53,378 bases of DNA, from positions 1 to 53,378 of the forward strand of contig NZ_JAFHKK010000019.1 in assembly GCF_016937535.1 (NCBI RefSeq), given 5' to 3'. Positions 21,069 to 38,365 of this stretch are shown here, piece by piece (positions within the stretch are counted from its first letter, which is position 1; each line of letters starts with the position of its first letter). Under the pieces are notes generated by a model that was not told where the DNA came from, did not search any database, and saw only the letters and a program-made list of their open reading frames with translations. Source of the DNA: Sulfurospirillum tamanense (GTDB lineage: Bacteria; Campylobacterota; Campylobacteria; Campylobacterales; Campylobacteraceae). The translations under genes were made by a program, and so were the position numbers.

Positions 21069-21410
21069 TTAGCGTTCAATGATAATCGTTTTGCGCGTGT
21101 AGGGCTCATAACGGTCGTAGTGGCGATCATAGCGGCGGTCATTGTAACGGTCGTTAGCATAACGGCGTTTTTGCGGCGCGCGCTCCACATACACAATCTC
21201 TTTGCGCACCACAGGCTCGTGATGCACCACGACGGGCTGAGTATTTTGCGCGCCAAACAAGTTCCCCATATTTTGACTAAGTGTTGGCAAAAGCAGTAAA
21301 ATCCCAGCACCCATAAGGGCTCCTTGTTCGCGTTTTCCAATGGCATTGGCGTTCACAACCGCCAAAGAGCTCACTAACAACATCGCTAACGCGGGCTTGA
21401 AGAGCTTCAT
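21069..21410 (-). CDS. Exported protein with Arg/Tyr/Asp-rich tail, function unknown
   Basis: 113 residues from ATG 21410, preceded by the strong site AAAGGAGG. A signal peptide ends near VVNANA. A Gly/Ala/Leu hydrophobic stretch (GALMGAGILLLLP) follows, and the last 35 residues are low-complexity with RYxDRRYDRHYDRY-like repeats. I do not recognise the family. The hydrophobic stretch could insert in a membrane, with the charged tail exposed. It is first in an apparent pair with the cytochrome c gene and is divergent from a small membrane ORF, with paired 11-bp repeats between them. Confidence 0.72.
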   Translation of the reverse strand: MKLFKPALAMLLVSSLAVVNANAIGKREQGALMGAGILLLLPTLSQNMGNLFGAQNTQPVVVHHEPVVRKEIVYVERAPQKRRYANDRYNDRRYDRHYDRYEPYTRKTIIIER

Positions 21411-21451
21411 CGCTTCCTCCTTTAGATTTGATAGCAGTAGTCTAACAGCCG

Positions 21452-21471
21452 ATTGTGAAGCCATTGTGAAG
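21452..21471 (-). promoter_or_regulatory. Direct repeat ATTGTGAAG x2, 11-bp spacing
   Basis: ATTGTGAAG occurs at 21452-21460 and 21463-21471, one 11-bp step apart (CTTCACAAT on the minus strand, toward the gene starting at 21410). This is the geometry of OmpR-family sites. No regulator is known for this word. Confidence 0.45.
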
Positions 21472-21474
21472 TGG

Positions 21475-21505
21475 TTACGTAAAATTTACGCAGATTAGAT
21501 AGAGT
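21475..21505 (+). promoter_or_regulatory. TTACG direct repeats (11-bp spacing) with a -10-like hexamer
   Basis: TTACG at 21475-21479 and 21486-21490 are 11 bp apart. The second is part of TTTACGCAG, and after six bases comes TAGAGT (21500-21505). The psrA promoter has the same order and spacing. It could drive the 39-residue ORF at 21534. Confidence 0.5.
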
Positions 21506-21514
21506 ACTGTCACT

Positions 21515-21524
21515 TTACATGTAA
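21515..21524. repeat. TTACATGTAA element next to the small ORF ribosome site
   Basis: Exact copy whose last bases run into AAGGAG, the ribosome site of the 39-residue ORF. Folding of the element could influence access to it. Confidence 0.9.
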
Positions 21525-21533
21525 GGAGTGAAA

Positions 21534-21653
21534 ATGGAGCTTATTATTGGATTGTATTCAGGGGGTTTTGCAGGACTTGTGGTTGGTCAACGCTTTTTGG
21601 CAGGCCTTGGTCTTTTGATGATTAGTGCCGCGACTGCTCTTACGTTATTTTAA
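21534..21653 (+). CDS. Small hydrophobic membrane protein, 39 residues
   Basis: ATG 21534 is preceded by AAGGAG at seven bases. The product begins MELIIGLYSGGFAGLVVGQR and ends ISAATALTLF: one or two short hydrophobic helices with a Gly-rich zipper-like start and a single Arg. The Shine-Dalgarno sequence directly abuts a TTACATGTAA element (21515-21524). The 3' end overlaps the convergent cytochrome gene by nine bases. I do not recognise it. Support comes from the ribosome site, coding-like composition and a possible regulated promoter; similarity evidence is lacking. Confidence 0.6.
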   Translation: MELIIGLYSGGFAGLVVGQRFLAGLGLLMISAATALTLF

Positions 21654-21980
21654 CCGTCCCATAAAGGTATAGGTTTCCCAATAGGTATCAATCGCCTCTT
21701 CTAGGGCTGCTTCGCCAAGGGTCCACGGGGCTTTGATGCCGTATTTCTCCACCAAGCCTTCGGGCAAAAGGGTTTTTTCCTTCATGGGGTGCATGAGATA
21801 ATCTTTCAGCGCTGCTTTCACTGACACTTCGGAACTAAATACCAAGACGTAACGGTAGAAAAATTTGTCAATCCCCACGTCCAAGTCCTGATGACACCCC
21901 ACGCACTCTTTTTCATACACGGTCGCCCCAAGGCTTACATGTAAGGCCAACATAAGGCCTACCACAAAACGCGTACGCAT
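21645..21980 (-). CDS. Small periplasmic c-type cytochrome, atypical
   Basis: 111 residues. A signal peptide (about 1-18) is followed almost at once by the heme site CVGCH (near 27), then a mainly helical region with LMHPMKEKTLLP, where a Met may be the second axial ligand. The sequence does not follow the c553 pattern and I cannot name a subfamily. It starts 22 bases inside the end of the kinase gene, so it is translationally coupled to it. A role in redox signalling to that kinase is possible but inferred. Confidence 0.83.
   Translation of the reverse strand: MRTRFVVGLMLALHVSLGATVYEKECVGCHQDLDVGIDKFFYRYVLVFSSEVSVKAALKDYLMHPMKEKTLLPEGLVEKYGIKAPWTLGEAALEEAIDTYWETYTFMGRLK
21935..21944. repeat. 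TTACATGTAA element (in cytochrome signal peptide, LHV frame)
   Basis: Exact copy read ALHVSL inside a signal peptide, where His is unusual. Confidence 0.9.
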
Positions 21981-23155
21981 GTTCCCTCTCCTTTGGTGGA
22001 TTCAAGGGCAAGCTTAAGCCCATACTCTTTAGCAATCATCCCCACGATGTTTAGCCCGATGCCAAACCCGCCCGCACTCTCATGGCACCGCACGTAACGG
22101 TCAAACACGCGCGCTAGTTTGGACGCGTCAATCCCGATACCCGTGTCTTTGATTTCCAACACACCTGGCGCAACCTTTACATGTAAACTTCCGCCCACGC
22201 GGTTATATTTGATAGCATTTGAAAGCAAGTTGTCCACTAAACGCGTCAATGCCCCTTGGTCAATCCACAACGCAGCAGGGGCTGTGTCCACCTCCCAAGT
22301 GATTTTTTTCGCCTCCAAACTAAGGGCAAAATACTCCACCCGCTCTTGCGCTACCACGTCTACTTGCACCTCGCTCTCATGGCGCGCTTGATGGCGTCCA
22401 AGGGTCAAATAGGTCAAGTCTTTATACAGGTGCGATACACTCTGCGCGCCCAAGCGAATGCGTTCAAGTTTGCGCGCGGTTTTAGGCTCTAGGGTCTGCA
22501 GGGGAATCATCTCGATGTTTGATAAAATGGCGTGAATTGGGGTATTAAGCTCATGGGTGGTGTCTTTGATAAAACGGTCCAAAAGCGCGATGGCTTCCCG
22601 CATAGGACGCAACAACAAGCGCAATAAAAAATACCCCCCAACCGCCAAAAAGAGAAAAATCCCCCCGCCAAACCACGCCATGTTTCGCAAGGCTTCGTGG
22701 TGCCACGCCCCATCATCTTCCACTTCCAAGACCAAGTATTGCGTCCCCAAATAGTGGGCTTCGGGCTCTTTAATGTAGTGAATCATGCCCTCTTTGAGGT
22801 AGATGATACGCGAGAGCAAGGGGCTTACATGTAAGAGGGAAAAAATCTCCACCGCCGCTCCATCAAAAATCCCTGAGCGAAAAGCTTCATGGCGCGGGTA
22901 TTCTTGGGTTTTATCAAAGGCGACGTGCAAGGCGCGCAAGGCTTTGACGTGCTCATTTGCCAGTGCATTAAGCTCGCCCCGTTTGAGGCTTAGCATCGCT
23001 TCTTTTTGGAGGGCATAATACCCTGCGCCAAACAAGCCCAAAATCGTACACGAGAGGGTTAAATACAGTGCCAAAAACGCCACAAGCGTGCGTCTTTCAC
23101 GCCGTTGTAAGTTTGTATCCCAGTTTTTTGAAACTGACAATTTTTTCTTTTCCAA
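21959..23155 (-). CDS. Sensor histidine kinase with a periplasmic sensor domain
   Basis: About 398 residues if the TTG at 23155 is used; TTG 23140 or GTG near 23080 are alternatives, because the regulator stop is at 23097. TM1 (about 24-47) and TM2 (about 158-180) flank a periplasmic loop of some 110 residues. The H-box is KDTTHELNTPIHAI, N-box DNLLSNAIKYN, G1 DTGIGID, F-box VFDRYVRC, G2 GFGIGLNIV. It is paired with the OmpR regulator just upstream and overlaps a cytochrome c gene downstream. Three elements (22177, 22825 within it, 21935 next door) are all in the LHV frame. Confidence 0.9.
   Translation of the reverse strand: MEKKKLSVSKNWDTNLQRRERRTLVAFLALYLTLSCTILGLFGAGYYALQKEAMLSLKRGELNALANEHVKALRALHVAFDKTQEYPRHEAFRSGIFDGAAVEIFSLLHVSPLLSRIIYLKEGMIHYIKEPEAHYLGTQYLVLEVEDDGAWHHEALRNMAWFGGGIFLFLAVGGYFLLRLLLRPMREAIALLDRFIKDTTHELNTPIHAILSNIEMIPLQTLEPKTARKLERIRLGAQSVSHLYKDLTYLTLGRHQARHESEVQVDVVAQERVEYFALSLEAKKITWEVDTAPAALWIDQGALTRLVDNLLSNAIKYNRVGGSLHVKVAPGVLEIKDTGIGIDASKLARVFDRYVRCHESAGGFGIGLNIVGMIAKEYGLKLALESTKGEGTCVRVLW
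22177..22186. repeat. TTACATGTAA element (in kinase gene, LHV frame)
   Basis: Exact copy read SLHVKV. Confidence 0.9.
22825..22834. repeat. TTACATGTAA element (in kinase gene, LHV frame)
   Basis: Exact copy read LLHVSP; second copy in the same kinase gene. Confidence 0.9.
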
Positions 23156-23765
23156 TCAATTTTCGCAGGTTTTTGATGTAGGTGCGAAGGGCCGTCTCAC
23201 TAGGCGTTTCCTCGTACGACCACAGGGCTTCTTGCAGGGCTTCATGGCTTAGCACTTCCCCGCGGCGTTTTAAAAAATAGGCCAACAATTGGGCCTCTTT
23301 GCGCCCAAGGGGATGGGTCTGGCCCTTTACATGTAAGGCATTGCCCACCGTGTCAAAAGCCACTTCCTCGCCCAAAGCCACCACCGCACTGCCCACATGC
23401 CCAAACTCACGGCGCAACAAACTGCGAACACGAAGCAATAACTCCTTAAGAGCAAAGGGTTTGCGAATGTAATCATCACACCCGCTAGCAAACCCACTCT
23501 CCACATCCGCCAACCCATCCCGCGAGGTGATGAAAATCGCAGGGGTAGCCACCGCGGCCTTTCTGGCTTCCTTTAGGAGGGCAAAGCCGTTAATATTGGG
23601 CACATTTACATCCAGCAGTAGCAGATCGAACTGCTTTTCATACAAGGCCTCTTGGGCTGCTTCACCCTCGTACACACACACCACTTCAAACCCCTCATCC
23701 TCCAAAAATTCACACAAGGTTTGAGAGAGGTTCATGTCATCTTCTAGCAACAATAGCCGTGCCAC
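23097..23765 (-). CDS. OmpR/PhoB-family response regulator
   Basis: 222 residues from GTG 23765. The receiver shows LLEDD, the phospho-acceptor in LLLLDVNVP, the Thr in FITSRD and the Lys in YIRKPFAL. The winged helix (about 130-222) includes the ETALRTYIKNLRK recognition region and ends KLGYKL. It overlaps the DUF1104 stop by one base (TAGTG) and the kinase start by up to 59 bases. The 11-bp-spaced repeats 1.6 kb away (21.45-21.50 kb) have the geometry this family binds. It has an element at 23327 read as LHV. Confidence 0.92.
   Translation of the reverse strand: MARLLLLEDDMNLSQTLCEFLEDEGFEVVCVYEGEAAQEALYEKQFDLLLLDVNVPNINGFALLKEARKAAVATPAIFITSRDGLADVESGFASGCDDYIRKPFALKELLLRVRSLLRREFGHVGSAVVALGEEVAFDTVGNALHVKGQTHPLGRKEAQLLAYFLKRRGEVLSHEALQEALWSYEETPSETALRTYIKNLRKLIGKEKIVSFKKLGYKLTTA
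23327..23336. repeat. TTACATGTAA element (in OmpR regulator gene, LHV frame)
   Basis: Exact copy read ALHVKG, at the receiver/output linker region. Confidence 0.9.
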
Positions 23766-23980
23766 TAGCGCTTCTCTTTGATGGCGCGTTCAAATTGTTG
23801 GCGCTCGTTGGGCGAAAAGGTGGGCTTGCGGCTTTCGAGTTCTTTTAGAAGCAAAGGGCGTTCGTTTGGTTTCACGTACCCAATGAGGGCGATGAGCTCT
23901 TGGTTGCTTAGGGCTGAAAAATCCGTCCGCGCCACAAGGCATCCTAGTGCCAACAAGAGCACCAAGAGGATTTTATGCAT
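23765..23980 (-). CDS. Small exported DUF1104-like protein
   Basis: 71 residues. A signal peptide (about 1-18, LLVLLLALGCLVA) is followed by TDFSALSNQELIALIG, the start expected for DUF1104, a family of short periplasmic proteins known mainly from Campylobacter and Helicobacter. The rest is a charged helical segment. The function is unknown. It overlaps the AI-2E-type gene by eight bases and the response regulator by one, so it is read in the same transcript as both. It may be the periplasmic partner of the kinase (inference). Confidence 0.78.
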   Translation of the reverse strand: MHKILLVLLLALGCLVARTDFSALSNQELIALIGYVKPNERPLLLKELESRKPTFSPNERQQFERAIKEKR

Positions 23981-25046
23981 CGTTTTTTAACTTTTTAAGG
24001 GGAATCACCGAACTCTCTTCGGCTTTAGACGCCGCCGTTTCCCCACGGTAATCGCTCAAAATCATTGCAATCCACCGCGTACGCGGGTTGGCATCAAGGG
24101 CAATTTTCACGCTCATGGTCAAAGGAACAGCTAAAAACATTCCCGCTGGCCCCAAAACCCATCCCCAAAAGAGCAACGACATCACGACCACCAAGGTAGA
24201 AATCCCAAGGCCGCGCCCTAAAAAACGCGGTTCGATAAAATTGCCAATGGCGATATTGACCACCACAAATACCGAAAGTACCCACAATGCCGCGCCCACG
24301 TCCAATTCTACCAATGTCACCAACACCGCAGGAATCGCTGCTAAAATCGACCCAATGGTGGGAATGTAGTTGAGCAAAAAGGCCAGCAAGCCCCACAACA
24401 GTGCGTATTTCACTCCCATCACAGAAAGTGCCGCACCAATGAGCACTCCTGTAACAAAACTTGCCATGGTTTTAATAGCAAGATAGCGTTTGAGGTTTTG
24501 AATAAACGTCTCAGCAATGTGCAAATTTTCAGGATTTTTTTGGGCAAAAAAACCCACCTTCGCACGCATACTTACTGTTTCAAACAACATAAAGGTGACC
24601 ATCAAAAAAATCAAAAAAGAGTTGGAAAGAATCTGGCTCATAGAGCGCAAAAAGGCTCCCGCTGTCGTGATGGCACTGGAAGGGTCAAACCCTTGGGGTG
24701 GCGCACTCATATCAATAGGAACACCCATCTCTTTGAGCCACATTATCCCATCATTGACCACAAAAGAGAGCTTGCGCTGAATTTCGGGCAACGAACTTAA
24801 AAAGCCGTTCATGGAGTTACCCACAATGATGCCCACTCCCATCATAATCCCCACCACACCCGCAAGGACAATCAAAAAAGACAAGATGCGCGGCATGCCA
24901 AGTTTTTCGAGCAAAAGCAACAAAGGCGCGCTGATAATGGCAATAAACACCGCTAATAAAAACGGCACCATAATCACCTGCGCCGCCCTCACGCCTGCAA
25001 TCACAATCACAAATGCCGCCAACGCCATCAAAGCACTAGGACGCAT
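23973..25046 (-). CDS. AI-2E family transporter (YdiK/PerM-like)
   Basis: 357 residues with about seven to eight hydrophobic helices: an N-terminal pair, a polar segment (about 80-140), then the core with the family region KYALLWGLLAFLLNYIPTIGSILAAIP and the later EPRFLGRGLGIS plus LFWGWVLGPAGMFLAVPL motifs. The family includes exporters of AI-2 and Na+/H+ antiporters; function cannot be chosen from sequence. AGGAG before the ATG lies inside the upstream lipoprotein gene (11-base overlap). It sits in the mla-type operon. Confidence 0.88.
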   Translation of the reverse strand: MRPSALMALAAFVIVIAGVRAAQVIMVPFLLAVFIAIISAPLLLLLEKLGMPRILSFLIVLAGVVGIMMGVGIIVGNSMNGFLSSLPEIQRKLSFVVNDGIMWLKEMGVPIDMSAPPQGFDPSSAITTAGAFLRSMSQILSNSFLIFLMVTFMLFETVSMRAKVGFFAQKNPENLHIAETFIQNLKRYLAIKTMASFVTGVLIGAALSVMGVKYALLWGLLAFLLNYIPTIGSILAAIPAVLVTLVELDVGAALWVLSVFVVVNIAIGNFIEPRFLGRGLGISTLVVVMSLLFWGWVLGPAGMFLAVPLTMSVKIALDANPRTRWIAMILSDYRGETAASKAEESSVIPLKKLKNDA

Positions 25047-25629
25047 CAGGTTCTCCTAGCCACAGAGTAAGTTCTCTCACCCAAGCCTCAAAGGCACGGT
25101 TATAGGCCTCTAGTGCGCCCGTAGGTGTTTGGACAAGCACAGGGATTTCAATGCGAAACACCCGATGGGCAACCGAAGTATTCTCTGCAACGTCCACCAC
25201 CCGCGTCCTTACATGTAAGCGCACCACAGACGTGCTATCTTGCAACAAATACTGCTCAAAGGCGGACACACTGTTTTCCAACACACGCTGTGGGCGCACC
25301 TTGCTTGTAGTGCTTGTAACATCTTCGAACATTTCGCTTTGGGCTAATGCTAGCACTACTAGGTGTTGCATTTGCCTAGAAAGCGGTTTTTCCCACTGGT
25401 GGTGAGCATAGGCACGGCGCAATCCTTCTGGGGTTTGGTACACAAGCTTAGTAGAGTCTACATTACCCGCCACGGGGCGCACTTGCAAAACATACGAAAA
25501 ACGCTGCGCAAACACAGGCATTAGTCCAACTTCCCCGAGGCGAAATTGTGCCATAGGCTGCGAAAGGGTGGGTTTTACTGTACAGCCCATCATCACAAGG
25601 GCAGTACTCAACAGAACAATCCAACGCAT
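25036..25629 (-). CDS. ABC-transport auxiliary lipoprotein (PqiC/MlaD-associated type)
   Basis: 197 residues from ATG 25629 (GTG 25635 is possible but AGGAG fits the ATG). The lipobox LVMMGC places the acylated Cys at about 16, so it is a lipoprotein of the inner or outer membrane. The middle and C-terminal parts (PVAGNVDSTKLVYQTPEG, LHVRTRVVD) match the PqiC/YmbA-like auxiliary component of MCE transporters. It lies two bases after the MlaD-type gene. It would bridge the MCE ring to the outer membrane. It has an element at 25209 read as LHV. Confidence 0.83.
   Translation of the reverse strand: MRWIVLLSTALVMMGCTVKPTLSQPMAQFRLGEVGLMPVFAQRFSYVLQVRPVAGNVDSTKLVYQTPEGLRRAYAHHQWEKPLSRQMQHLVVLALAQSEMFEDVTSTTSKVRPQRVLENSVSAFEQYLLQDSTSVVRLHVRTRVVDVAENTSVAHRVFRIEIPVLVQTPTGALEAYNRAFEAWVRELTLWLGEPDAS
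25209..25218. repeat. TTACATGTAA element (in lipoprotein gene, LHV frame)
   Basis: Exact copy read RLHVRT. Confidence 0.9.
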
Positions 25630-25631
25630 AC

Positions 25632-26624
25632 TCACTCTCCTGGTCCTAAGGGTTTGGGGGTAGAACGGTATAAGATATCTGAGGGGCTCTCCTCAAGGCG
25701 CTGTGCCAATTGGCGCAACTGCGTCATAAGTATCTCAAGCTCATACAAAGTGTGCTGGGCTGGCATCAACGCATCCTCAGCAATACGCGCCACATCAAAC
25801 ATCCCCTCATCTACTTTTTGGTCAATTTTTTGCATCACCCCTTGTACGCTTTGGGCTGAGGTTTTTACCTTATCCATCATCGCGACCCCTTGGTGCTCAA
25901 CCACTTGCGAGAGAGCTTCTGCTGCTACTTTAACGCTCTTAGCCGCATCAATAACCTCCTCTTCAAGCACTACACCTTGACGAATCAGTGTCCCCAAATG
26001 CTCACGTTCTTTGGCTACTTCTTGGGCAATAAGTGCTAGTGACTGAGTGGTTTTAGCACTGTTTTCTAGTAAAACTTGAATGTGGTGTATGTTGGTCTCA
26101 TCCAGCAGAAGATGGGTTTTTTCTGCCACGCCTGTAGCGTGCTCTAAAATCCTTTCTACTTTTTCCATGGCATGGCTAAACGACTGGTCTACCCGTGAGA
26201 AGAGTGAGGGTTTTGTGAGAATGATTCCCATGGATTTTTCCTCATAGCTTGTTGCCAAAATTGGTGCATCACGGGTGCCTCCTTCTAATTGCAAATAGCT
26301 AAGTCCCGTAATTCCTTGGGGCTCAATGAGCGCATAAGTGTCTGTTTTAATAGGGGTATCGGATTTAATTTTGATGATAATACTCACTTCTTCGCTATTT
26401 TGAGGGTTAATAAATAACCGCTCCACCTCACCCACATTCACACCCCGAAGTTTCACAGGTGCTTTGTCGTTAAGCCCAGCAACAGATTCGGTTGTATTGA
26501 CTTTATAATAATCATACACGTCATTTTGGGCATATTTCCCTTGCCATAAGATAAACCACACCCCAGCAATCCCTACCCCAAAAACAAACAAACCCAACAG
26601 CAAATAGCGTACACGGTGTTCCAT
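25632..26624 (-). CDS. mlaD: MlaD-type MCE protein of a lipid transport system
   Basis: 330 residues. One N-terminal membrane helix (about 7-27, YLLLGLFVFGVGIAGVWFI) anchors it in the inner membrane. The MCE domain follows (about 38-115): APVKLRGVNVGEVERLFI and YALIEPQGITGLSYLQLEGG. The remaining 200 residues form a long helical and coiled-coil region, longer than in E. coli MlaD (about 180 residues in total), as in MCE proteins that form tunnels. It binds phospholipid in the periplasm, with MlaF and MlaE. GGAG precedes the ATG. Confidence 0.9.
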   Translation of the reverse strand: MEHRVRYLLLGLFVFGVGIAGVWFILWQGKYAQNDVYDYYKVNTTESVAGLNDKAPVKLRGVNVGEVERLFINPQNSEEVSIIIKIKSDTPIKTDTYALIEPQGITGLSYLQLEGGTRDAPILATSYEEKSMGIILTKPSLFSRVDQSFSHAMEKVERILEHATGVAEKTHLLLDETNIHHIQVLLENSAKTTQSLALIAQEVAKEREHLGTLIRQGVVLEEEVIDAAKSVKVAAEALSQVVEHQGVAMMDKVKTSAQSVQGVMQKIDQKVDEGMFDVARIAEDALMPAQHTLYELEILMTQLRQLAQRLEESPSDILYRSTPKPLGPGE

Positions 26625-26626
26625 TA

Positions 26627-27349
26627 TTACTCCATAAAGCGTTTCATCAACTCAGAGTGCGTACCCATAAGCTCGGTATACGACCCTTGTGCTTGCACTT
26701 TTCCCTCACCCAAAATCACAAACCTGTCTAACACATCCCTAATGGTATCTTTATCGTGGGTTACCATCACAATCGTTATCCCCAAAAGCTCTCGAAGTTC
26801 CAATATGAGCGTATCAAATCCCCTTGCACTTGCAGGGTCTAATCCCGAAGTTGGCTCATCTAAAAAGAGAAGTTTTGGGTCTAGTGCCAATGCACGTGCA
26901 AGCCCTGCGCGTTTTTTCATCCCACCGCTAAGTTCTGAGGGCCACAAAGATGCGGCATGTTCGGGCAGACCAACCATTTTAAGCTTCATCCGCGCCATCT
27001 CTTCAATGAACCCACGGGGAAGCGCGGTGTATTCTTGTAAAGGAATCATCACGTTTTCCAACACCGTCAATGAACTAAACAAGGCGCCAAATTGAAACAA
27101 CACGCCCCACTGAAGACGCAAAGCCTGTTTGGCTGCTTCATCCAATGTTGCCAAGGAGCACCCAAGCACTTCAATGCGACCACTTCTGGGCTGATTGAGC
27201 AAAATCATTTCTCGCATCAATACGGTTTTTCCGCTACCACTTCCCCCCAGGAGTCCAAAAATCTCTCCTTTGTTTACATGTAAGCTTACACCGTTGTGCA
27301 CCACGTGGCTCCCAAAGGCCGTGACCACATTATCAACAACGACCATCAT
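26627..27349 (-). CDS. mlaF: MlaF-type ABC transporter ATP-binding protein
   Basis: 240 residues. Walker A is GGSGSGKT, signature LSGGMKKRAGLARA (the GGMKKR form is diagnostic for the MlaF group), Walker B KLLFLDEPTSGLDP, and switch His in VTHDKD. It powers lipid movement by the MlaE permease. Its start overlaps the mlaE stop as ATGA, and the mlaD start follows two bases after its stop. It contains a TTACATGTAA at 27274 read as LHV. Confidence 0.93.
   Translation of the reverse strand: MMVVVDNVVTAFGSHVVHNGVSLHVNKGEIFGLLGGSGSGKTVLMREMILLNQPRSGRIEVLGCSLATLDEAAKQALRLQWGVLFQFGALFSSLTVLENVMIPLQEYTALPRGFIEEMARMKLKMVGLPEHAASLWPSELSGGMKKRAGLARALALDPKLLFLDEPTSGLDPASARGFDTLILELRELLGITIVMVTHDKDTIRDVLDRFVILGEGKVQAQGSYTELMGTHSELMKRFME
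27274..27283. repeat. TTACATGTAA element (in mlaF, LHV frame)
   Basis: Exact copy read SLHVNK, shortly before Walker A. Confidence 0.9.
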
Positions 27350-28464
27350 ATCCCAAGCTCCGTTAAAAGAACCGAAAATAAAGCATTAAAGGCGATGACC
27401 CAAAAAATAGCGTTAACGACACTAATAGTCGTGTATTTACCCACGCTTTCAGTAGAAGAGCTAATCTGAAACCCACGATAACACCCAATGAGTGCAATAA
27501 TAATACCAAAAATAGGAGCCTTAACCAGACCAATTACAATGTGCTTAAGCGCGACAGTCTCTTGGAAGCGGTCTATAAACTCCACAAAACTTATTCCTAA
27601 CTCTCCTCGCGCTACCAACATTCCCCCAAAAATAGCCACCCCATCACCCAGTAGCACTAAAAGAGGCATCGCCACCACCAGCGCCACCACACGCGGCAAG
27701 ACCAAAAATTCCCACGGCCCAAAACCCATGGTCTTCATGGCATCCACCTCATCGGTGATTTTCATGACCCCAATTTGCGCCGCAAAGGCCGAAGCGCTCC
27801 GCCCTGCGATGACAATAGCAACTATCATAGGCGCAAGCTCCCGCGTAGCCGCAATTCCAACCATCTCCACGATGAAAATATTGGCCCCAAATTTTTCCAA
27901 CTGCACCGCGCCTTGGTAGGCAATCACCACACCAATAAGTAATGCGGTAATGATGATGATGGGAAGGGCGTTTAGACCGCTTTGTTCCAAATGGTACAAG
28001 GTTGCACGAAACCGTATCTTGTGAGGCCTTGTAAGGGTTTTAAGTAAAGCGTACATCGCGCCCCCCGCAAAGGACACAAACGACAAAAAAGCGCGCCATA
28101 ACGCTTCGGTTTGTTTTCCTAAAACCACAAACCCTTCACTAAAGCCAAAAGAGGGAGGGGTTGTTTTGAGGGAATGGCGGGAGTGGATTTGGCACAGGGA
28201 AATTAATTTTTCCATTTTTTTTGGGATTCCCACCTTTTCAACACTCACGCCTCTTACTTCAAGCTCTTTTTTTATACGAAGCCACGCCAATGCTCCAGCT
28301 GTATCCATAGACAAAACTTGCGAAAAATCAAAAACCGCTTTTTGCTTAACCTCTCCCCACGCTTTAGCCCCAAGCACTGAGCTCACAAAGGCATGCGTCC
28401 ACTCTCCTTGACACACAATGCGACAACAAGAAGGTGTGACATCTAGCACAAAAAGCTTTTGCAT
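27346..28464 (-). CDS. mlaE: MlaE-type permease with N-terminal STAS domain
   Basis: 372 residues. An N-terminal STAS-like domain (about 1-95, with VFDFSQVLSMDTAGALAW) corresponds to a fused MlaB, explaining the lack of a separate mlaB. The membrane domain (about 150-372, five helices) has the MlaE hallmarks GVVIAYQGAVQLEKFGA, VGIAATRELAPM, AGRSASAFAAQIG and MKTMGFGPWEFLVLPR. It moves phospholipid across or out of the inner membrane. It is first of nine tightly packed genes. A 7-base inverted repeat (28479-28485 / 28507-28513) lies in the upstream region. Confidence 0.93.
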   Translation of the reverse strand: MQKLFVLDVTPSCCRIVCQGEWTHAFVSSVLGAKAWGEVKQKAVFDFSQVLSMDTAGALAWLRIKKELEVRGVSVEKVGIPKKMEKLISLCQIHSRHSLKTTPPSFGFSEGFVVLGKQTEALWRAFLSFVSFAGGAMYALLKTLTRPHKIRFRATLYHLEQSGLNALPIIIITALLIGVVIAYQGAVQLEKFGANIFIVEMVGIAATRELAPMIVAIVIAGRSASAFAAQIGVMKITDEVDAMKTMGFGPWEFLVLPRVVALVVAMPLLVLLGDGVAIFGGMLVARGELGISFVEFIDRFQETVALKHIVIGLVKAPIFGIIIALIGCYRGFQISSSTESVGKYTTISVVNAIFWVIAFNALFSVLLTELGI

Positions 28465-28585
28465 AGGCCCTCTTTTTTGGGATTTGAAAGTATTTTAGCA
28501 TATTTTAAATCCCCTCATACTATGATGCGAAATGTACAGAGGTGCTTTTTTGAACTGGGGTAATTTTACACAAAAAGGACACATT
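28465..28585. promoter_or_regulatory. Divergent promoter region mlaE / msrA with inverted repeat
   Basis: GGGATTT (28479-28485) and AAATCCC (28507-28513) are perfect inverted arms separated by 21 AT-rich bases. Within the spacer, TAAAAT on the minus strand could be the mlaE -10. No small ORF is visible. Confidence 0.35.
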
Positions 28586-29113
28586 ATGGACCACGACACT
28601 ATCGTCCTTGGAGGCGGTTGTTTTTGGTGCTTAGAAGCAGTTTATGAAGAAGTCATAGGTGTTCGTGAAGCCCTCAGTGGCTACATGGGTGGCACCCAAG
28701 AAGAGGCCACTTACACCCAAGTGTGTACAGGCCAAACGGGACACGCAGAAGTGGTGCACCTCTCTTTTAATCCTAAAGTTGTTTCTCTTGAGAAACTTTT
28801 GGCTATTTTTTGGAATATTCACGATCCCACCACGCCAAACCAACAAGGTCATGATAAAGGTCCGCAGTACCGCTCTGTTATATTTTACTCCAATGACGCC
28901 CAGTTCCAATGTGCCCAACACGCCAAAGCTGAAGCCCAAAAAAGATTTAGTGCGCCCATTGTTACCCAAATTGTTCCTGCTTCTATTTTTTACGAGGCCG
29001 AAGCGTACCATCGGCACTATTTTAAAAACAATCCTGAAGCAGGATATTGCCAAGCAGTTGTTGCTCCAAAAGTAAAAAAATTTCAGCAAACCTACCCTGA
29101 TTTACGGCGCTAA
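28586..29113 (+). CDS. msrA: Peptide methionine-S-sulfoxide reductase A
   Basis: 175 residues from ATG 28586, with AAAGGA upstream. The catalytic motif GGCFWCLEA is at about 9-17, followed by GYMGG, the TGQTGHAEVV region and IHDPTTPNQQGHDKGPQYRS split over the substrate pocket. It reduces the S-epimer of methionine sulfoxide using thioredoxin. There is no signal peptide, so it is cytoplasmic. The final bases overlap the convergent hemerythrin gene by four. MsrB is not in the window. Confidence 0.96.
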   Translation: MDHDTIVLGGGCFWCLEAVYEEVIGVREALSGYMGGTQEEATYTQVCTGQTGHAEVVHLSFNPKVVSLEKLLAIFWNIHDPTTPNQQGHDKGPQYRSVIFYSNDAQFQCAQHAKAEAQKRFSAPIVTQIVPASIFYEAEAYHRHYFKNNPEAGYCQAVVAPKVKKFQQTYPDLRR

Positions 29114-29556
29114 AGGTCAGTGATTTCATCTGGCGCAATGGGTTTAGCCTGCGCCTCTTCACGGCGTTTTGCCTTGCGCCATTTTTCGTACTGCATGTCA
29201 TGGACTAAAATATGCTCCATAAGCCACACCCGAACGATTTTGCGCAGGGCAGCTTGAATCTCTAAAAACGAGTGGCTTTGCTGCAAGATACCGTTCATGG
29301 CTTCGATAATATCTGCGTGCAAAGCACCGTGTTCCTCGCGATTTTCATAGCCAATCTCTTCCATGTACGCCTCTTCTTCTTTAAAGTGCTCTTTCATGTA
29401 CATGTAAAAGTTTTTCAGCAAGGTGCGTACTTTTTCTTTGGTGGCACGCTGCGGGCTAAGGGTGTATACTTCTAGAGCCAAACGAAATAACTCTTGGTGC
29501 TGGGCATCAAGAAGCGAATGGTTAACACTGTATTGGGGCTTCCATGTAGGCAACAT
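29110..29556 (-). CDS. Bacteriohemerythrin
   Basis: 148 residues. The diiron ligands of hemerythrin are all in place: H20, H57 and E61 in EHFKEEE, H76 and H80 in EEHGALH, H115 and D120 in MEHILVHD. It binds O2 reversibly. The last 20 residues are a charged tail. Campylobacterota carry many such proteins for oxygen handling or storage. It contains a one-mismatch element (gtacatgtaa, 29398-29407). It is convergent with msrA and divergent from bacterioferritin. Confidence 0.92.
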   Translation of the reverse strand: MLPTWKPQYSVNHSLLDAQHQELFRLALEVYTLSPQRATKEKVRTLLKNFYMYMKEHFKEEEAYMEEIGYENREEHGALHADIIEAMNGILQQSHSFLEIQAALRKIVRVWLMEHILVHDMQYEKWRKAKRREEAQAKPIAPDEITDL

Positions 29557-29658
29557 GCGATTCCTTTTTTTGGTGAGGTATCCTAAACTATTGTGGGTAA
29601 ATTTCGCCTTAGAGAGATTATGCTACACTTGCTCAAATATACCTCAAAGGAGATTTCT

Positions 29659-30153
29659 ATGCATAAAAAAAGTATTGAATTACTCAACGCCGCTGTGGCG
29701 GATGAGCTAAGTGCCGTACACCAGTACATGTATTTCCATTTTCACTGTGACGACCAAGGCTACAACCTGCTCTCAAGCCTCTTTAAACGCACCGCCATTG
29801 AAGAGATGATTCATGTGGAAAAGCTAGCAGACCGCATCTTGTTCTTGGGCGGGGATGTAAACATGGAGCCCCAAGACCCTGTAAAACGCGTTAAAGACGT
29901 TAAAGAGATGCTTGAAATGGCATGTAGCATGGAAGAAGCAAGCGCTAAAGACTACAATAAAATGGCCTTAGAGTGCTCTGCCAATGCTGACTCGGTATCT
30001 AAAAAGATTTTTGAAGAACTCGTAGCAGACGAAGAGCGCCACTATGACGCTTATGACCGTGAGCTTGACAATCTTAAACGTTTTGGCGACAAATACCTTG
30101 CCCTTCAATCCATGGGTGGTGGTGCCGAAGCTCCTACAGGTCGCCCACAATAA
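29659..30153 (+). CDS. bfr: Bacterioferritin / ferritin-like iron storage protein
   Basis: 164 residues from ATG 29659, with AAAGGAG upstream; the longer open frame to 29593 has no support. The ferroxidase ligands match Bfr: E16, E49 and H52 in EEMIH, a Glu near 92-93, E125 and H128 in DEERH. M50 corresponds to the heme-binding Met of bacterioferritins. It oxidises and stores iron in the cytoplasm. A -10-like TATGCT is at 29619-29624. A 28-base perfect palindrome follows the stop. Confidence 0.9.
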   Translation: MHKKSIELLNAAVADELSAVHQYMYFHFHCDDQGYNLLSSLFKRTAIEEMIHVEKLADRILFLGGDVNMEPQDPVKRVKDVKEMLEMACSMEEASAKDYNKMALECSANADSVSKKIFEELVADEERHYDAYDRELDNLKRFGDKYLALQSMGGGAEAPTGRPQ

Positions 30154-30158
30154 GCCTC

Positions 30159-30186
30159 TTGGGTGCTTTACATGTAAAGCACCCAA
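30159..30186 (+). terminator. 28-base perfect palindrome after bacterioferritin
   Basis: TTGGGTGCTTTA-CATG-TAAAGCACCCAA is self-complementary over its whole length and contains an exact TTACATGTAA (30168-30177) at its centre. As RNA it would fold into a 12-base-pair stem with a CATG loop just after the bfr stop. An A-run rather than a T-run follows on the plus strand, so for bfr it is more likely a 3'-end stabiliser or Rho-type site than a classical terminator. Read from the minus strand it has no role near the tRNA cluster beyond possible termination. Confidence 0.6.
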
Positions 30187-30262
30187 AAAAGACTCGAACA
30201 CAAATGTAACATAAAAAAGATTGGTTATAAAAAGAAGTTTTGTGGTCACCTTTTAAAAAAGG

Positions 30263-30347
30263 TGGTGCGGATGAGAGGACTCGAACCTCCACACCGTCAG
30301 GCACCAGATCCTAAGTCTGGCGTGTCTACCAATTTCACCACATCCGC
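30263..30347 (-). tRNA. tRNA-Leu (anticodon TAG)
   Basis: Read on the minus strand: acceptor stem GCGGATG/CATCCGC, anticodon loop CTTAGGA with TAG, long variable arm as in type II tRNAs, T-loop GGTTCGAGTCC, discriminator A and encoded CCA. It is last in a five-tRNA cluster. Confidence 0.96.
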
Positions 30348-30369
30348 ATAGTAAAGAAGAACATTTCAG

Positions 30370-30446
30370 TGGTACGCCCGTCAGGATTCGAACCTGAGAC
30401 CTACGGCTTAGAAGGCCGTTGCTCTATCCAACTGAGCTACGAGCGC
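30370..30446 (-). tRNA. tRNA-Arg (anticodon TCT)
   Basis: Minus strand: anticodon stem ACGGC/GCCGT with loop CTTCTAA (TCT), D-arm AGCTCAGTTGGATAGAGC, T-loop GGTTCGAATCC, encoded CCA. It reads AGA/AGG codons. Confidence 0.96.
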
Positions 30447-30470
30447 ATCTCTTAACTGAACTGTAAATAA

Positions 30471-30547
30471 TGGTGCGCCCGATAGGAGTCGAACCTATAA
30501 CCTACAGATCCGAAGTCTGTTGCTCTATCCAATTGAGCTACGAACGC
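30471..30547 (-). tRNA. tRNA-Arg (anticodon TCG)
   Basis: Minus strand: anticodon stem ACAGA/TCTGT with loop CTTCGGA (TCG), D-arm AGCTCAATTGGATAGAGC, T-loop GGTTCGACTCC, encoded CCA. It reads CGA/CGG codons. Confidence 0.96.
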
Positions 30548-30566
30548 AAACGCGCTTTAGAAAAAA

Positions 30567-30644
30567 TGGGGTGAGTGATGGGAATCGAACCCACGGCCCT
30601 CAGAACCACAACCTGATGCTCTAACCGACTGAGCTACACCCACC
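30567..30644 (-). tRNA. tRNA-His (anticodon GTG)
   Basis: Minus strand: loop TTGTGGT with GTG, T-loop GGTTCGATTCC, encoded CCA. The discriminator is C, opposite an encoded G at position -1 (30644), both identity elements of tRNA-His. Confidence 0.96.
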
Positions 30645-30665
30645 ATCTCAAAAAGCCTTAATCAG

Positions 30666-30743
30666 TGGTCGGGGTGAAAGGATTCGAACCTTCGGCCCCT
30701 TGGTCCCAAACCAAGTGCGCTAACCAGGCTGCGCTACACCCCG
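30666..30743 (-). tRNA. tRNA-Pro (anticodon TGG)
   Basis: Minus strand: acceptor CGGGGTG/CACCCCG, anticodon stem CTTGG/CCAAG with loop TTTGGGA (TGG), T-loop GGTTCGAATCC, encoded CCA. It is first of the cluster, just downstream of the promoter at 30785-30813. Confidence 0.96.
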
Positions 30744-30784
30744 AAATTTCGGGTAACATTTCCCACAGACGTTTTGAGGACGTA

Positions 30785-30813
30785 ATTTTAGACAAATTTA
30801 CTTTTTTTGTCAA
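30785..30813 (-). promoter_or_regulatory. Promoter of the tRNA cluster
   Basis: On the minus strand, TTGACA (30808-30813), a 17-base spacer and TAAAAT (30785-30790) make a near-consensus vegetative promoter about 40 bases before tRNA-Pro. This is stronger than other promoters here, as expected for stable RNA. Confidence 0.85.
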
Positions 30814-30919
30814 GGAAAATTTGTTCTTTTTGGGCTCTGACGATAATAATATTTCTTTTTAATAGTTATTGCGCCAAAAGTAGAGATTTTTTTGACGAAT
30901 TAACTTTTTTGATTAAGAA

Positions 30920-30951
30920 TTTACGCTCAGTTTACGCAGCTAGTCTACTAT
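30920..30951 (+). promoter_or_regulatory. psrA promoter: TTTACGC direct repeats (11-bp spacing) and -10
   Basis: TTTACGC at 30920-30926 and 30931-30937 are exactly 11 bp apart. The second, extended as TTTACGCAG, is followed after six bases by TACTAT (30946-30951), a -10-like box 32 bases before the psrA ATG. No good -35 accompanies that -10, as expected for an activator-dependent promoter. A separate weaker pair, TTGACG (30892-30897) and TAAGAA (30914-30919), lies just upstream. Confidence 0.6.
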
Positions 30952-30983: not shown

Positions 30984-33272
30984 ATGACTCAAACGCTTAG
31001 TAGAAGAAGCTTTTTAAAGCTCTCTTCCGGAGCAGCGGCTGCGGTTGGTCTTTCGACCATTCCAGGGACGCTAGGCGCATTAGGCAACAAGCCACAGGCG
31101 ATTTCTGGTAGCGCCAAATTTGTTCCTAGTGTATGTGAAATGTGTACGAGCTCCTGTACTATTGAAGCTCGTGTAGAAGACGGTAAAGGCGTCTTTATTC
31201 GCGGTAACCCTAACGACAAAGGTCGCGGCGGAAGAGTGTGTGCAAGAGGGGGCTCTGGCTTTAACCAAATGTACGATCCAAACCGCTTGATTAAACCTAT
31301 CATGCGCACGGGTGAGCGAGGCGAAGGAAAGTGGAAGGAAGTCAGTTGGGACGAAGCTTACACTTTTATTGCCAAAAAAATGGACGAAATAAAGCAAAAG
31401 CATGGTGCGCACACTATGGCATTTACAGCGCGCAGTGGATGGAATAAAGTATGGTTTCACCATCTTGCACAAGCGTATGGTTCGCCCAATATCTTTGGTC
31501 ACGAAGCTACTTGTCCTCTCTCTTATGGTATGTCAGGAAAAGATGTATACGGTAGCAGTATCGGACGCGATTTTGCCAAAGCAAAATACATCATCAATAT
31601 GGGGCACAATGTTTTTGAGGGCATTGTTATCTCCTATGCACGCCAATACATGAGCGCATTGCAAAATGGTGCCAAAGTTGTTACTTTTGAACCACGCCTT
31701 TCTGTTATGGCTTCCAAAGCAGGCGAATGGCATCCGATTAAACCAGGGCATGATTACCCGTTTGTACTGGCTTTCTTAAATGTTCTTATTAATGAAAACC
31801 TTTACGATAAAAAATTCGTTGAGAAAAACTGCGAAGGATTTGAAGAGCTTAAAGCCTCTGTAGCCGAATACACTCCAGAAAAAATGGCCCCAGAGTGCGA
31901 CATTCCAGCAGATACCATCCGCCGTGTTGCACGCGAATTTGCTGCAGCGGCCCCTAAAGCTATCTTTGATTATGGTCACCGCGTTACCCTTTCATCCCAA
32001 GAGCTTGAACTACGCCGTGCCATCATGATGTGTAATGCCCTTGTAGGTGCCGTAGAAAAAGATGGTGGCTACTATTTGCCAAAAAATGCAAAACTTTACA
32101 ACTCTTTCATGGGTGAAGAGGACGCTAAAGCTCCAGGGCTTAAAAAACCAAAAACCCCTGCATACCCTAAAGTAGAAGTGCCACGCATTGACCGCATCGG
32201 AGAAGAAGATTGTGAATTTTTCCTAGCTAGCAAAGGCCAAGGCATTACAACACTCGTGCCAAAAGCTGCACTTAATGAGCTTCCAGGCGTGCCTTACAAA
32301 ATTCACGGTTGGTTTATTGCACGTAACAATCCTGTAATGACCTATTCTAATACAGAAACAGTCATCAATGGCATGAAAGAGATGGATCTTGTTGTTGTTG
32401 TGGATTATCAAGTTTCAGATACTGCTTGGTATGCTGATATTGTACTACCAGACACAACGTATCTTGAGCGTGATCAAGAGCTTACTGCTGGTGGGGGCAA
32501 GAATCCAAGCTACAGCATTGGACGTCAAAAAGTGGTTGATCCTATCGGTGATTCGCGTCCGGGCTGGAGAATCGCTAAAGAATTGGCTTCGAAAATGGGT
32601 CTTGATGAATATTTCCCATGGAAAGATGTTGAGGATTACCGCTTGCAACAAGTGGGTGGTGATGTCAGCCTTTTAGCAGAACTTAAACTCAAAGGTTTAA
32701 AAGGCTACGGGGTGCCTCTCATGCTTCAAGAGAAAGCCAGTGTAGCTAAATTTGTAAAGCAATTCCCAGGTGCTGCCGCAAATGTTAACGAAGATGGCGT
32801 GTTTGATTTGCCAAAGAAAATTCAACTGTTTAGCCCTAAGCTTGAAAAAGTTTCTGGAACAGGTGGCTTAAAATACAACCCATTTAAGTATAAAGAAGCA
32901 GATGAGCTCTATTTTGTTAACGGAAAATCTGCAGTACGCACCAATGGTGCTGGCGCCAATAACGAATGGCTTAACAACCTTCAAACTGATGGCGGCGCGT
33001 GGATTCATCCAAATACAGCCAAGAAACTAGGTATTAAAAACGGCGATACCGTTGAAGTATACAACAAGTATGCCACTGAGCGCGGCACAGCGGTTGTTAC
33101 AGAAGGAATTCGTGAAGATACTATCTTTGCTTATATGGGCTTTGGACACATTAGTAAAAAATTACGCTACCACGGCAATGGGATTAATAGCAATGCGCTA
33201 TACCCATCATTCACTGGACAAAACTCCGGTATGGATTTGCATGTTGTTGGCGTTAAAATTAGAAAAGTATAA
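30984..33272 (+). CDS. psrA: Polysulfide/thiosulfate reductase catalytic subunit, molybdopterin oxidoreductase
   Basis: 762 residues. A TAT signal RRSFLKLSS (7-15) exports the folded enzyme to the periplasm. Cysteines 51, 54, 58 and 86 (CEMCTSSC and RVCARGG) bind a [4Fe-4S] cluster. [10 protein letters not shown] supplies the Cys that coordinates molybdenum in PsrA/PhsA enzymes. The remaining bis-MGD binding regions follow, with a C-terminal domain including DTVEVYNKY. It reduces polysulfide or thiosulfate to sulfide with electrons from PsrC through PsrB. The two substrates cannot be separated by eye; PhsA is the alternative name. AAAGGA precedes the ATG. Confidence 0.93.
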
Positions 33273-33286
33273 GGAAGGGATCAATC

Positions 33287-33862
33287 ATGGCTAAAAAATA
33301 TGGAATGATTCACGATGAAAATCTGTGCATCGGTTGCCAAGCATGTAACATTGCGTGTCGGTCTGAAAACGACATCCCTGAAAGCGTTTATCGCCTCCAA
33401 GTATGGGTTAATGGCCCTAAAAAGCTTGCTGATGGGAACATGGTTTTTGAATACCACCGCCAATCTTGCGTCCACTGCGACGACACACCTTGTGTAAAAG
33501 TATGTCCTACCAAGGCATCTTATATTGATGAAAATGGCATTTCTTTGGTTAACGTTGACCTGTGTGTAGGTTGTCTCTACTGTAATGCAGCATGTCCTTA
33601 CGATGCGCGCTATGTGCATCCTGAGCACAAAGCACCAGATAAATGTACTTTCTGTAAAGAGTCACGTCTAGGACGCGGGGAAGAGCCTGCGTGTGTGACC
33701 GTATGTCCTACGGATGCACTTGTCTTTGGAGACATTAACGATCCAAAAAGCAAAATTAGCAAAGTGCTTTCCCAGCGTGTCACATACCGCCAAAAAGCAC
33801 ACCTTGGCACAGAGCCAAAAATGTTTATCGTACCTAACAAGAAGGGAGGAGTTCAGTCATGA
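33287..33862 (+). CDS. psrB: Polysulfide/thiosulfate reductase iron-sulfur subunit
   Basis: 191 residues. Sixteen cysteines in four ferredoxin-type clusters are visible: CIGCQACNIAC, CVHCDDTPCVKVC, CVGCLYCNAAC, and CTFCKES...CVTVC. It passes electrons from the membrane subunit to PsrA. It has no signal of its own and travels with PsrA's TAT signal. It is 14 bases after psrA and overlaps psrC by four. Confidence 0.95.
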   Translation: MAKKYGMIHDENLCIGCQACNIACRSENDIPESVYRLQVWVNGPKKLADGNMVFEYHRQSCVHCDDTPCVKVCPTKASYIDENGISLVNVDLCVGCLYCNAACPYDARYVHPEHKAPDKCTFCKESRLGRGEEPACVTVCPTDALVFGDINDPKSKISKVLSQRVTYRQKAHLGTEPKMFIVPNKKGGVQS

Positions 33863-34812
33863 GTCCAATGTGGGGATCTACCGTACAATACGGCGGTATC
33901 GTTTGGCCTTGGCCAATCGCAGTGTACCTCTTTTTAGCAGGTCTTTCAGCAGGTGCGATTATTTCAGCAATCGTGATTAAGTGGATGAAAGGGAATGACA
34001 GTTCTCCTTGGGATGGCATTATTAAAGCAGGTGCGATTCTTGCACCCGTGACTATTGGTGCGGGTTTGTTGCTTTTGATTGTTGACCTTACCCGTCCGCT
34101 TCATTTTTGGAAGTTGCTTATTAACTATAACTTTGGCTCGATGATGACTATCGGTGTATTGGCTTTGTTTGCTTACTTCCCAGTCATTATTATCTTTTTC
34201 TTGGGCATTTTTCGCAAACCACTCATCGACGAGGGTCCTTTTGGCTTCTTGGCGCCTTTGGCAGACATTGCTAAAAACCAAGCCAAGCTTCTTGAAGTAA
34301 TTACCCTTGTCTTAGCAGTAGGTGTTGGTGCATACACTGGCTTCTTGCTTTCCGCAATGAATTCGTATCCACTACTTAACACACCAACCTTGCCATTGCT
34401 TTTCTTGGCTTCTGGTATTTCAGCGGGCATTTCTGCCAACCTTATCGTAGGGCTTGTATTCTTTAAAAGCACTACCGGTGAAGAAAATGTCAGCTACTTG
34501 CACGGCCTTGACTTTAAAGTCATTCTAGCCGAAATGTTCATCTTGGTTGCCCTTTTTAGCGGCATGTACTACCAAGGTGGTGCAGCAGCTAGTGTTGCCG
34601 CAGCGGCACTCACTACAGGTGGCTTTGCAACCTTGTTTTGGGTAGGTGTTTTTGGGGTTGGTCTTGCGGCTCCAGTAGGCTTAAATATCGTCATGCCTCA
34701 CAGCGTGAAACACTCTACTGCCTTCATCATCTTCAACGCTTTCTTGGTGCTTGCGGGTGTTATGGCACTACGTTTTTACATCCTCTACGCTGGCCAAACG
34801 TTCGTCGGCTAG
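33859..34812 (+). CDS. psrC: Polysulfide/thiosulfate reductase membrane subunit (NrfD family)
   Basis: 317 residues with eight or more hydrophobic helices, of the NrfD/PsrC family. The first helix region, WPWPIAVYLFLAGLSAGA, is a family hallmark. It anchors the PsrAB dimer and takes electrons from menaquinol or methylmenaquinol. It overlaps psrB by four bases (ATGA). A terminator follows seven bases after the stop. Confidence 0.93.
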   Translation: MSPMWGSTVQYGGIVWPWPIAVYLFLAGLSAGAIISAIVIKWMKGNDSSPWDGIIKAGAILAPVTIGAGLLLLIVDLTRPLHFWKLLINYNFGSMMTIGVLALFAYFPVIIIFFLGIFRKPLIDEGPFGFLAPLADIAKNQAKLLEVITLVLAVGVGAYTGFLLSAMNSYPLLNTPTLPLLFLASGISAGISANLIVGLVFFKSTTGEENVSYLHGLDFKVILAEMFILVALFSGMYYQGGAAASVAAAALTTGGFATLFWVGVFGVGLAAPVGLNIVMPHSVKHSTAFIIFNAFLVLAGVMALRFYILYAGQTFVG

Positions 34813-37069: not shown

Positions 37070-38365
37070 TTATTTGCTAGGCAATACAAATTTATCTATC
37101 CATTCACAAAATTGAGGAACAACTTCATCGCTACTCCAAATACCTATTCTATTGCACAAGCTACTGTAATCAGTCCCCTCAGCTACTTCTCCCGAGAGAA
37201 CATATTTCCAAAATTCATAAACTCTCTTGTTTTTCTGCAAATAGCATAATATATTGCTGTTTTTTTCCAAATCCGAAAGTGTTAAATTTTCACTTTGTGC
37301 TTTTTGATAAAGTTCAAAATCTTTTATTTTCAAAACACACAACAATGAGTACAGCCACATAAACTCCTCGTTTTCTCCCCTTCCTACTACGCATAAAGCC
37401 AATTGCATAAAAAGATGGTTCATTTCTCTTGGAGTTAGACCCGCTGACGCGCATAGTTCTTTTAAACTATCATGATGTTCCCCCTTGAAGCCATGTCCAT
37501 TAAACAAATATGCTACGTATGCGTCATACCCCTTTCCTGAAAAATCTTTCTTGGTTTTAGTAAGCCCAAACTCCAAAGAAATAAATTTTTGCAAATATTC
37601 ATTCGCATCAATATTTCCATAAACTGAACAGATGGAGTGTTTGAGTTGTTGTTTATTAACACCCAAAACGAATACAACATTATCCACATCAAAAAAGTGT
37701 TTTATTTTTTCCAATAATTCAACTGCGTAGTTCGGGCGACAACGGTCAAGCTCATCTACAATAACCACCAAAGGATAGCCAGTCTCAGACTTTAATTTTT
37801 CTGAAAGTTTTTTTAGTGCCTCTTTAAAATGCTTTATAGCTTGGTCGGAAGTTTTATAATTTTCAAGCGACTCATTTATAAAATGGTCGACCAATTCTCC
37901 TGAGTTTATCTTTGCTTCTTCTATAGCACTTTGCATACACTCAGAGCCCACTGCATTTGCTGATAAAACCCTAAGTCCTACGCCAAGGCCTATCTTTGTG
38001 GCAACTTTCAGAACTTTTTTACCTGCTACAACAAAACTCTTCTTTTCTTTAGATAAGCGCGTGAGTGGTTCCAGTTCAGCACTGATTGCTCCAATAAAAC
38101 TCGTAAAAATATCTTCTTGATAATCATGCAAAAAGGCATCAAACATAACCACCTTTGCACTTTCGTTTTTTAAATCCGCTTCCCACATTCTTAAAAAAGT
38201 ACTTTTCCCTTCGCCCCAACCTGCATTGATACTGATAGTCAGTGGGTCTTCAAAATTTTTCACGAGGCTTATTAATGTTTCACCAAGTTCTTGGCGACCT
38301 TTCAAAACATCTTTTTCATAGGGATTGCTTGGATTAATGTCCAAAGCTGGCAATACTAGTCTCAT
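37070..38365 (-). CDS. KAP-family P-loop NTPase
   Basis: 431 residues. Walker A is GWGEGKS (49-55). Walker B with the KAP signature VVIVDELDRCRP is near 208-219, followed by LEKIKHFFDVDNVVFVLGVNKQQL. A hydrophobic patch (about 130-150) between the two motifs is where the KAP family inserts membrane helices. The family occurs sporadically in bacteria and some members act in phage defence; the role of this one is unknown. AAGGAG precedes the ATG. The gene is visibly more AT-rich than its neighbours and has no obvious partner, so it is probably transferred. Exact elements lie at both edges (37056, 38393). Confidence 0.88.
   Translation of the reverse strand: MRLVLPALDINPSNPYEKDVLKGRQELGETLISLVKNFEDPLTISINAGWGEGKSTFLRMWEADLKNESAKVVMFDAFLHDYQEDIFTSFIGAISAELEPLTRLSKEKKSFVVAGKKVLKVATKIGLGVGLRVLSANAVGSECMQSAIEEAKINSGELVDHFINESLENYKTSDQAIKHFKEALKKLSEKLKSETGYPLVVIVDELDRCRPNYAVELLEKIKHFFDVDNVVFVLGVNKQQLKHSICSVYGNIDANEYLQKFISLEFGLTKTKKDFSGKGYDAYVAYLFNGHGFKGEHHDSLKELCASAGLTPREMNHLFMQLALCVVGRGENEEFMWLYSLLCVLKIKDFELYQKAQSENLTLSDLEKNSNILCYLQKNKRVYEFWKYVLSGEVAEGTDYSSLCNRIGIWSSDEVVPQFCEWIDKFVLPSK

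Follow-up and report, generated by a model that had tools for sequence, protein, structure and literature searches.

A paired TTTAC box shared by the promoters of psrABC and a small membrane-protein gene, and its probable reader, a psr-linked two-component system

The DNA analysed here, called the window, is a stretch of 53,378 nucleotides from Sulfurospirillum tamanense (contig NZ_JAFHKK010000019.1, positions 1 to 53,378). It contains the genes psrABC, for a polysulfide/thiosulfate reductase, and a small open reading frame (ORF). The promoters of the two, separated by about 9 kb, share a paired direct repeat, the TTTAC box, beside a -10 element.

30920 to 30937, forward strand: box before psrA, TTTACGC at 30920-30926 and TTTACGC at 30931-30937, 11-bp period; kept before psrA in relatives.
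30946 to 30951, forward strand: -10 element TACTAT of psrA, beginning 15 nt past the first base of the second repeat, a spacing common to all box-bearing psrA promoters.
30984 to 34812, forward strand: psrABC, comprising PsrA/PhsA (30984-33272), PsrB (33287-33862) and the NrfD-like PsrC (33859-34812).
21474 to 21491, forward strand: box before the small ORF, GTTACG at 21474-21479 and TTTACGC at 21485-21491, 11-bp period; kept in the congener G001 and weaker in genome G152.
21500 to 21505, forward strand: -10 element TAGAGT of the small ORF, with the same 15-nt spacing as at psrA.
21534 to 21653, forward strand: small ORF for a predicted membrane protein of 39 amino acids, MELIIGLYSGGFAGLVVGQRFLAGLGLLMISAATALTLF.

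PsrA, whose start codon lies at 30984, matches the NCBIfam PhsA model with 1078 bits (cut-off 694), and PsrB carries 4Fe-4S domains. At the 21.4-kb site the TTACG repeats begin at 21475 and 21486, with TTTACGCAG at 21485-21493, and the first T of the first half-site is replaced by a G at 21474. The layout common to the promoters is TTTAC-N6-TTTAC followed by TANNNT, with exactly 15 nt from the initial T of the second TTTAC to that of TANNNT. A sequence-only reading of the window had described the repeats of both promoters, their 11-bp period and their equal distance to the -10 elements, together with three OmpR-type regulators at 10187, 23097 and, in part, 52983. All of these, coordinates included, are confirmed by the sequence.

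As a single word, TTTACGC shows no enrichment across the window (12 occurrences, 8.5 expected), and loose 11-bp pairs of TTACG with two mismatches are found there at chance level, so the claim rests on the paired form. The genome of 2.46 Mb was scanned with patterns only. The genome-wide search for paired repeats that the same reading had proposed returned exactly two matches to TTACG-N6-TTACG-NAG, which are the two sites described above, where a first-order Markov (dinucleotide) model predicts 0.15. The anchored pattern TTACR-N6-TTACR-N9-TANNNT has four matches (0.24 expected; one for a reversed-pattern control). Applied to G001, it again gives four matches, with none for the reversed control, and the four promoters are the identical set. 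When one mismatch is allowed, the paired pattern matches less often in the rest of the genome than the reversed control does, and one such match that was inspected, on contig C32, lies inside a coding sequence.

Conservation of the box was examined in 153 genomes of the family, 70 of which have a PsrA/PhsA homologue, with G001 as the one congener. A set of 68 distinct psrA upstream regions was assembled from family members, Sulfurospirillum metagenome-assembled genomes and Helicobacter. The box was scored over 10 positions, counting only sites that have TANNNT at the fixed spacing, and each region was shuffled 100 times. The psrA promoter of G001 is identical to that of the source genome through the box and the -10 element, and several Campylobacter-type genomes, whose PsrA is only 40-45% identical, have exact paired matches a short way before psrA. 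TTTAC-N6-TTTAC is present in 31 of the 68 regions, compared with about 0.1 in total after dinucleotide shuffling. Boxes that score 9-10 sit 48-65 bp before the start codon. The repeats vary by lineage, being TTTACAT in Sulfurospirillum and TTTACG or TTTACA in Campylobacter. Thus the box with its fixed -10 element precedes psrA in the source genus, in Sulfurospirillum and in most Campylobacter lineages. Absence of the repeats before psrA in relatives had been named beforehand as the refuting observation, and the repeats are present.

The repeats might instead be a product of chance or of the A+T-rich composition of promoters. The motif was picked after both sites had been seen, and the counts for the single word and the loose pairs also point that way, but the psrA box is conserved over several genera at a fixed spacing, each score of 9-10 was reached in 0 of 100 shuffles, and all four sites have an orthologous site in G001. 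We give this explanation almost no credence, and for psrA conservation has already refuted it. The box shared by the two promoters is real.

Its geometry is a direct repeat of a 5-6-bp half-site with a period of one helical turn (10-11 bp), namely 11 bp at both sites and in the relatives, in a fixed place relative to the -10 element (15 nt at all four sites of the genome and at all box-bearing psrA promoters). This repeat geometry beside the -10 element bears out the proposal, made from the sequence alone, of a regulator of the OmpR/PhoB class. Among the OmpR-type regulators of the window, the candidate best supported is the partial response regulator (RR) at its end, together with the adjacent histidine kinase (HK).

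52983 to 53378, reverse strand: C-terminal part of an OmpR-family RR, psr-linked; the first 93 codons of the gene stand at the end of contig C7 from this genome.
51827 to 53002, reverse strand: HK with HisKA and HATPase domains and two predicted membrane segments that flank an extracytoplasmic segment of about 100 amino acids.

Orthologues of this pair lie directly downstream of psrABC in most box-bearing Campylobacter genomes; in Sulfurospirillum they follow a second psrABC. On contig C7 (G000 C7:1-3201), psrC2, psrB2 and a HemN-like radical-SAM gene (NF006385 match, 598 bits; cut-off 355) lie upstream of the RR start, and the promoter of the HemN-like operon is TTTACACTCAATTTACACAGCCTCGT-TACAAT. 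From G001, where the HemN-like gene, psrB2, psrC2, RR and HK are contiguous behind the box, we infer that C7 joins the end of the window. G152 keeps the order and spacing of box, psrB2, psrC2, RR and HK. In the source genome, G001 and G152 the RR/HK operon itself begins with the box, so the regulator's genes stand behind a copy of their own presumed target. The possibility that the operon on C7 and in G001 is a second psrABC was rejected, as it contains no psrA and the HemN-like radical-SAM gene occupies that place. The recognition helix of the RR, ADIRMHVRKIRQKT, is near-identical across the box-bearing lineages and differs in RR 10187 and RR 23097.

More generally, the OmpR-type RR is found together with the box and linked to box targets, with exceptions in one Campylobacter subclade. 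Ten psrA-bearing genomes that have no box also have no psr kinase, and the box is missing from genomes without the kinase, Helicobacter among them. Two other possible readers were considered. Proteins of the AraC family, too, bind repeats about one turn apart. An AraC-type activator is in fact the described psr regulator, PsrR of Wolinella succinogenes (PMC6682613), yet no AraC domain is encoded in the box-bearing genomes G059, G133, G067 and G079, which are 99-100% complete, and other box-bearing genomes have no AraC gene adjoining psrA. An AraC protein was therefore excluded as the general reader, and we regard it as extremely improbable for the boxes described here; a species-specific role is possible. 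The second is an orphan OmpR-type regulator general in Campylobacterota, of the kind of HP1043/HsrA of Helicobacter pylori (CosR in C. jejuni), which activates from TTTAAG hexamers 5 bp apart that overlap the promoter (PMC8345958), with a like period and place. However, the fifth base of the present half-site is C and not A, at positions that HP1043 needs, and the published CosR consensus differs (PMC3139631). HP1043/CosR is also present in Helicobacter and C. jejuni-type lineages, whose psrA has no box, whereas the box tracks the psr kinase, and there are only four sites in the genome. Where the HP1043/CosR regulon has the half-sites TTTAAG-N5-TTTAAG, the present boxes have TTTAC[G/A]. A reader of this kind is highly improbable.

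Several observations weigh against assigning the box to the psr-linked RR. The RR gene of the source genome spans a contig gap, and its join is taken from G001. A Campylobacter subclade, comprising about 15 near-identical genomes, retains an RR/HK homologue, although its psrA box is degenerate; the RR of this subclade has RNKT for RQKT and RRIGYK for RGLGYK, and some box-bearing relatives share this. Genus g6 keeps a more distant kinase homologue and has no box at psrA. In Sulfurospirillum the box stands at psrA1, and psrA2, which adjoins RR/HK, lacks one within 220 bp. As a separate observation, the psrA homologues of three Campylobacter-type genomes of the box-decayed subclade (G042, G037 and G040) each contain one in-frame stop codon.

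The four anchored sites of the genome precede psrA, the small ORF, a gene for a chemoreceptor (methyl-accepting chemotaxis protein) and the operon of the HemN-like gene, psrB2, psrC2, RR and HK. The chemoreceptor gene has its box at G000:C25:16468 (L229 4529-6136), and a chemoreceptor gene likewise carries it in G001 and in Sulfurospirillum genomes. In the latter the anchored pattern occurs before the HemN-like gene, before psrA and before a chemoreceptor gene whose product has a similar N terminus, and in G152 it additionally precedes a rhodanese gene; certain other matches in these genomes appear unrelated. The content of this predicted regulon fits sulfur respiration and taxis.

The product of the small ORF has no family match in profile searches. 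It is 87% identical in G001, where 15 of 20 changed codons are synonymous, and G152 has a homologue with a similar box; judged by this pattern of change, the small ORF is a real gene. Immediately to its left lies a second promoter, which faces the opposite way.

21455 to 21470, reverse strand: leftward box TTCAC-N6-TTCAC, kept in G001 (one change, outside TTCAC), G152, G136 and G151.
21439 to 21444, reverse strand: leftward -10 element TAGACT, beginning 15 nt past the first base of the second repeat in the leftward box.
21069 to 21410, reverse strand: divergent gene for an exported protein of 113 amino acids, followed by a small cytochrome c gene.
21959 to 23765, reverse strand: another two-component pair, RR 23097-23765 and HK 21959-23155, considered less likely to read the TTTAC box.

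The leftward promoter, TTCACAATGGC-TTCACAATCGGCTGT-TAGACT, faces the gene at 21410(-) and is kept next to the RR 23097 operon in relatives. On the forward strand its box appears as TTGTG at 21453 and 21464, and its 11-bp repeats are in phase with the TTTAC box, so that within the divergent promoters (window 21439-21505) four half-sites share one 11-bp phase across about 40 bp. This arrangement is kept in G001 and weaker in G152. We read the 21.4-kb region as two back-to-back promoters of one class for two different OmpR-type regulators, of which RR 23097 probably reads the leftward TTCAC-N6-TTCAC box. A direct repeat TTCAC-N6-TTCAC is reportedly recognized by DccR of Campylobacter jejuni (Wosten 2010). 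The leftward box alone resembles that repeat.

A rival view is that RR 23097 with HK 21959, or else RR 10187, reads both TTTAC boxes. RR 23097, at first assumed to be the reader, is OmpR-type and encoded 1.5 kb from the 21.4-kb box in a synteny preserved in G001. It was dropped on the evidence of the psrABC-linked RR/HK orthologues, the TTCAC boxes and the differing recognition helix. In G136, G151 and G135 the RR 23097 operon comes with a TTCAC-N6-TTCAC box and no TTTAC box beside it, and Campylobacter genomes with the psrA box have only RRs about 45% identical to this type, elsewhere in the genome. We consider a role for either protein at the TTTAC boxes quite improbable. Of the three regulators put forward from the sequence alone, the partial RR 52983 with HK 51827 is thus retained, and RR 23097 and RR 10187 are not favoured. 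The further suggestion that the shared site ties polysulfide respiration to the small-protein/cytochrome locus is supported for the psr and small-protein genes, which share the box. It is not supported for the cytochrome: the TTTAC box points at the small ORF and the divergent gene on the cytochrome side has its own TTCAC box, kept with the RR 23097 operon.

At the end of that operon (window 21645-21980, reverse strand) lies a gene for a small protein with one CxxCH haem motif, which has no Pfam family match and is kept with the operon in five other genomes. Elsewhere in the window (37070-38365, reverse strand), a KAP-family P-loop NTPase gene adjoins a MATE transporter gene and has no relation to the box.

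The box, its spacing, its conservation, its co-occurrence with the kinase, the operon linkage and the small regulon are observed. They make it likely that the repeats are paired half-sites for the OmpR/PhoB-family RR split between 52983-53378 and C7, which, with HK 51827 as its partner, would switch on a regulon of four promoters. The kinase would sense a sulfur-respiration cue at the cell surface and phosphorylate the RR. At the -35 position, two RR molecules would then occupy TTTACR-N5-TTTACR in head-to-tail arrangement, separated by one helical turn, and bring RNA polymerase to the -10 element, which lies at a constant 15 nt from where the second half-site starts. In this way psrABC, the membrane microprotein, the chemoreceptor and the regulator's own operon would be turned on. 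Direct binding by the RR, activation rather than repression and the signal are parts of the model that we infer from sequence features.

The same RR could act as a repressor by covering the -35 region. The box overlaps the expected -35 place, and Campylobacterota promoters often have no -35 element, so a missing one is no proof of activation. Against repression, the phase to the -10 element is invariant over large divergence, and HP1043, an activator, has a like position (PMC8345958). The box of the kinase operon itself is compatible with either mode. We consider repression unlikely. In a more speculative proposal, a dedicated two-component system would command a sulfur-respiration regulon across Campylobacter and Sulfurospirillum that couples reductase, chemoreceptor and membrane microprotein. 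In the lineage of the window, psrB2 and psrC2 of the regulator's operon, which have no catalytic subunit, may then act not as a reductase but as a quinone- or redox-sensing partner of the adjacent kinase. We put this forward tentatively, as a possibility that is rather unlikely.

Sulfur respiration is widespread in Campylobacterota, and the only described psr regulator that we found is the AraC-type PsrR, which controls psrABC in Wolinella (PMC6682613). No account of a TTTAC box or of a two-component psrABC regulator in Campylobacterota was found in the open-access literature, subscription papers being mostly outside the search. The present analysis names a candidate regulator, an exact DNA site and a four-promoter regulon that includes a chemoreceptor and an unstudied membrane microprotein. 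The candidate differs from PsrR in regulator family, AraC proteins being missing from several box-bearing genomes. By analogy, the position, spacing and repeat geometry of the box match those of OmpR-type activators. HP1043 is alike in its OmpR/PhoB type, T-rich half-sites, 11-bp period and promoter overlap, and differs in that the present box is TTTACR, belongs with a phosphorelay pair that includes a dedicated kinase, has few sites and is absent at psrA of Helicobacter. PmrA of Salmonella and Klebsiella, an OmpR/PhoB-type RR whose molecules sit head to tail on two hexamers with 5 bp between them (PMC3973317), has a box of matching geometry, but its half-site sequence and regulon differ. The architecture is of a known kind, and the regulon appears to be new.

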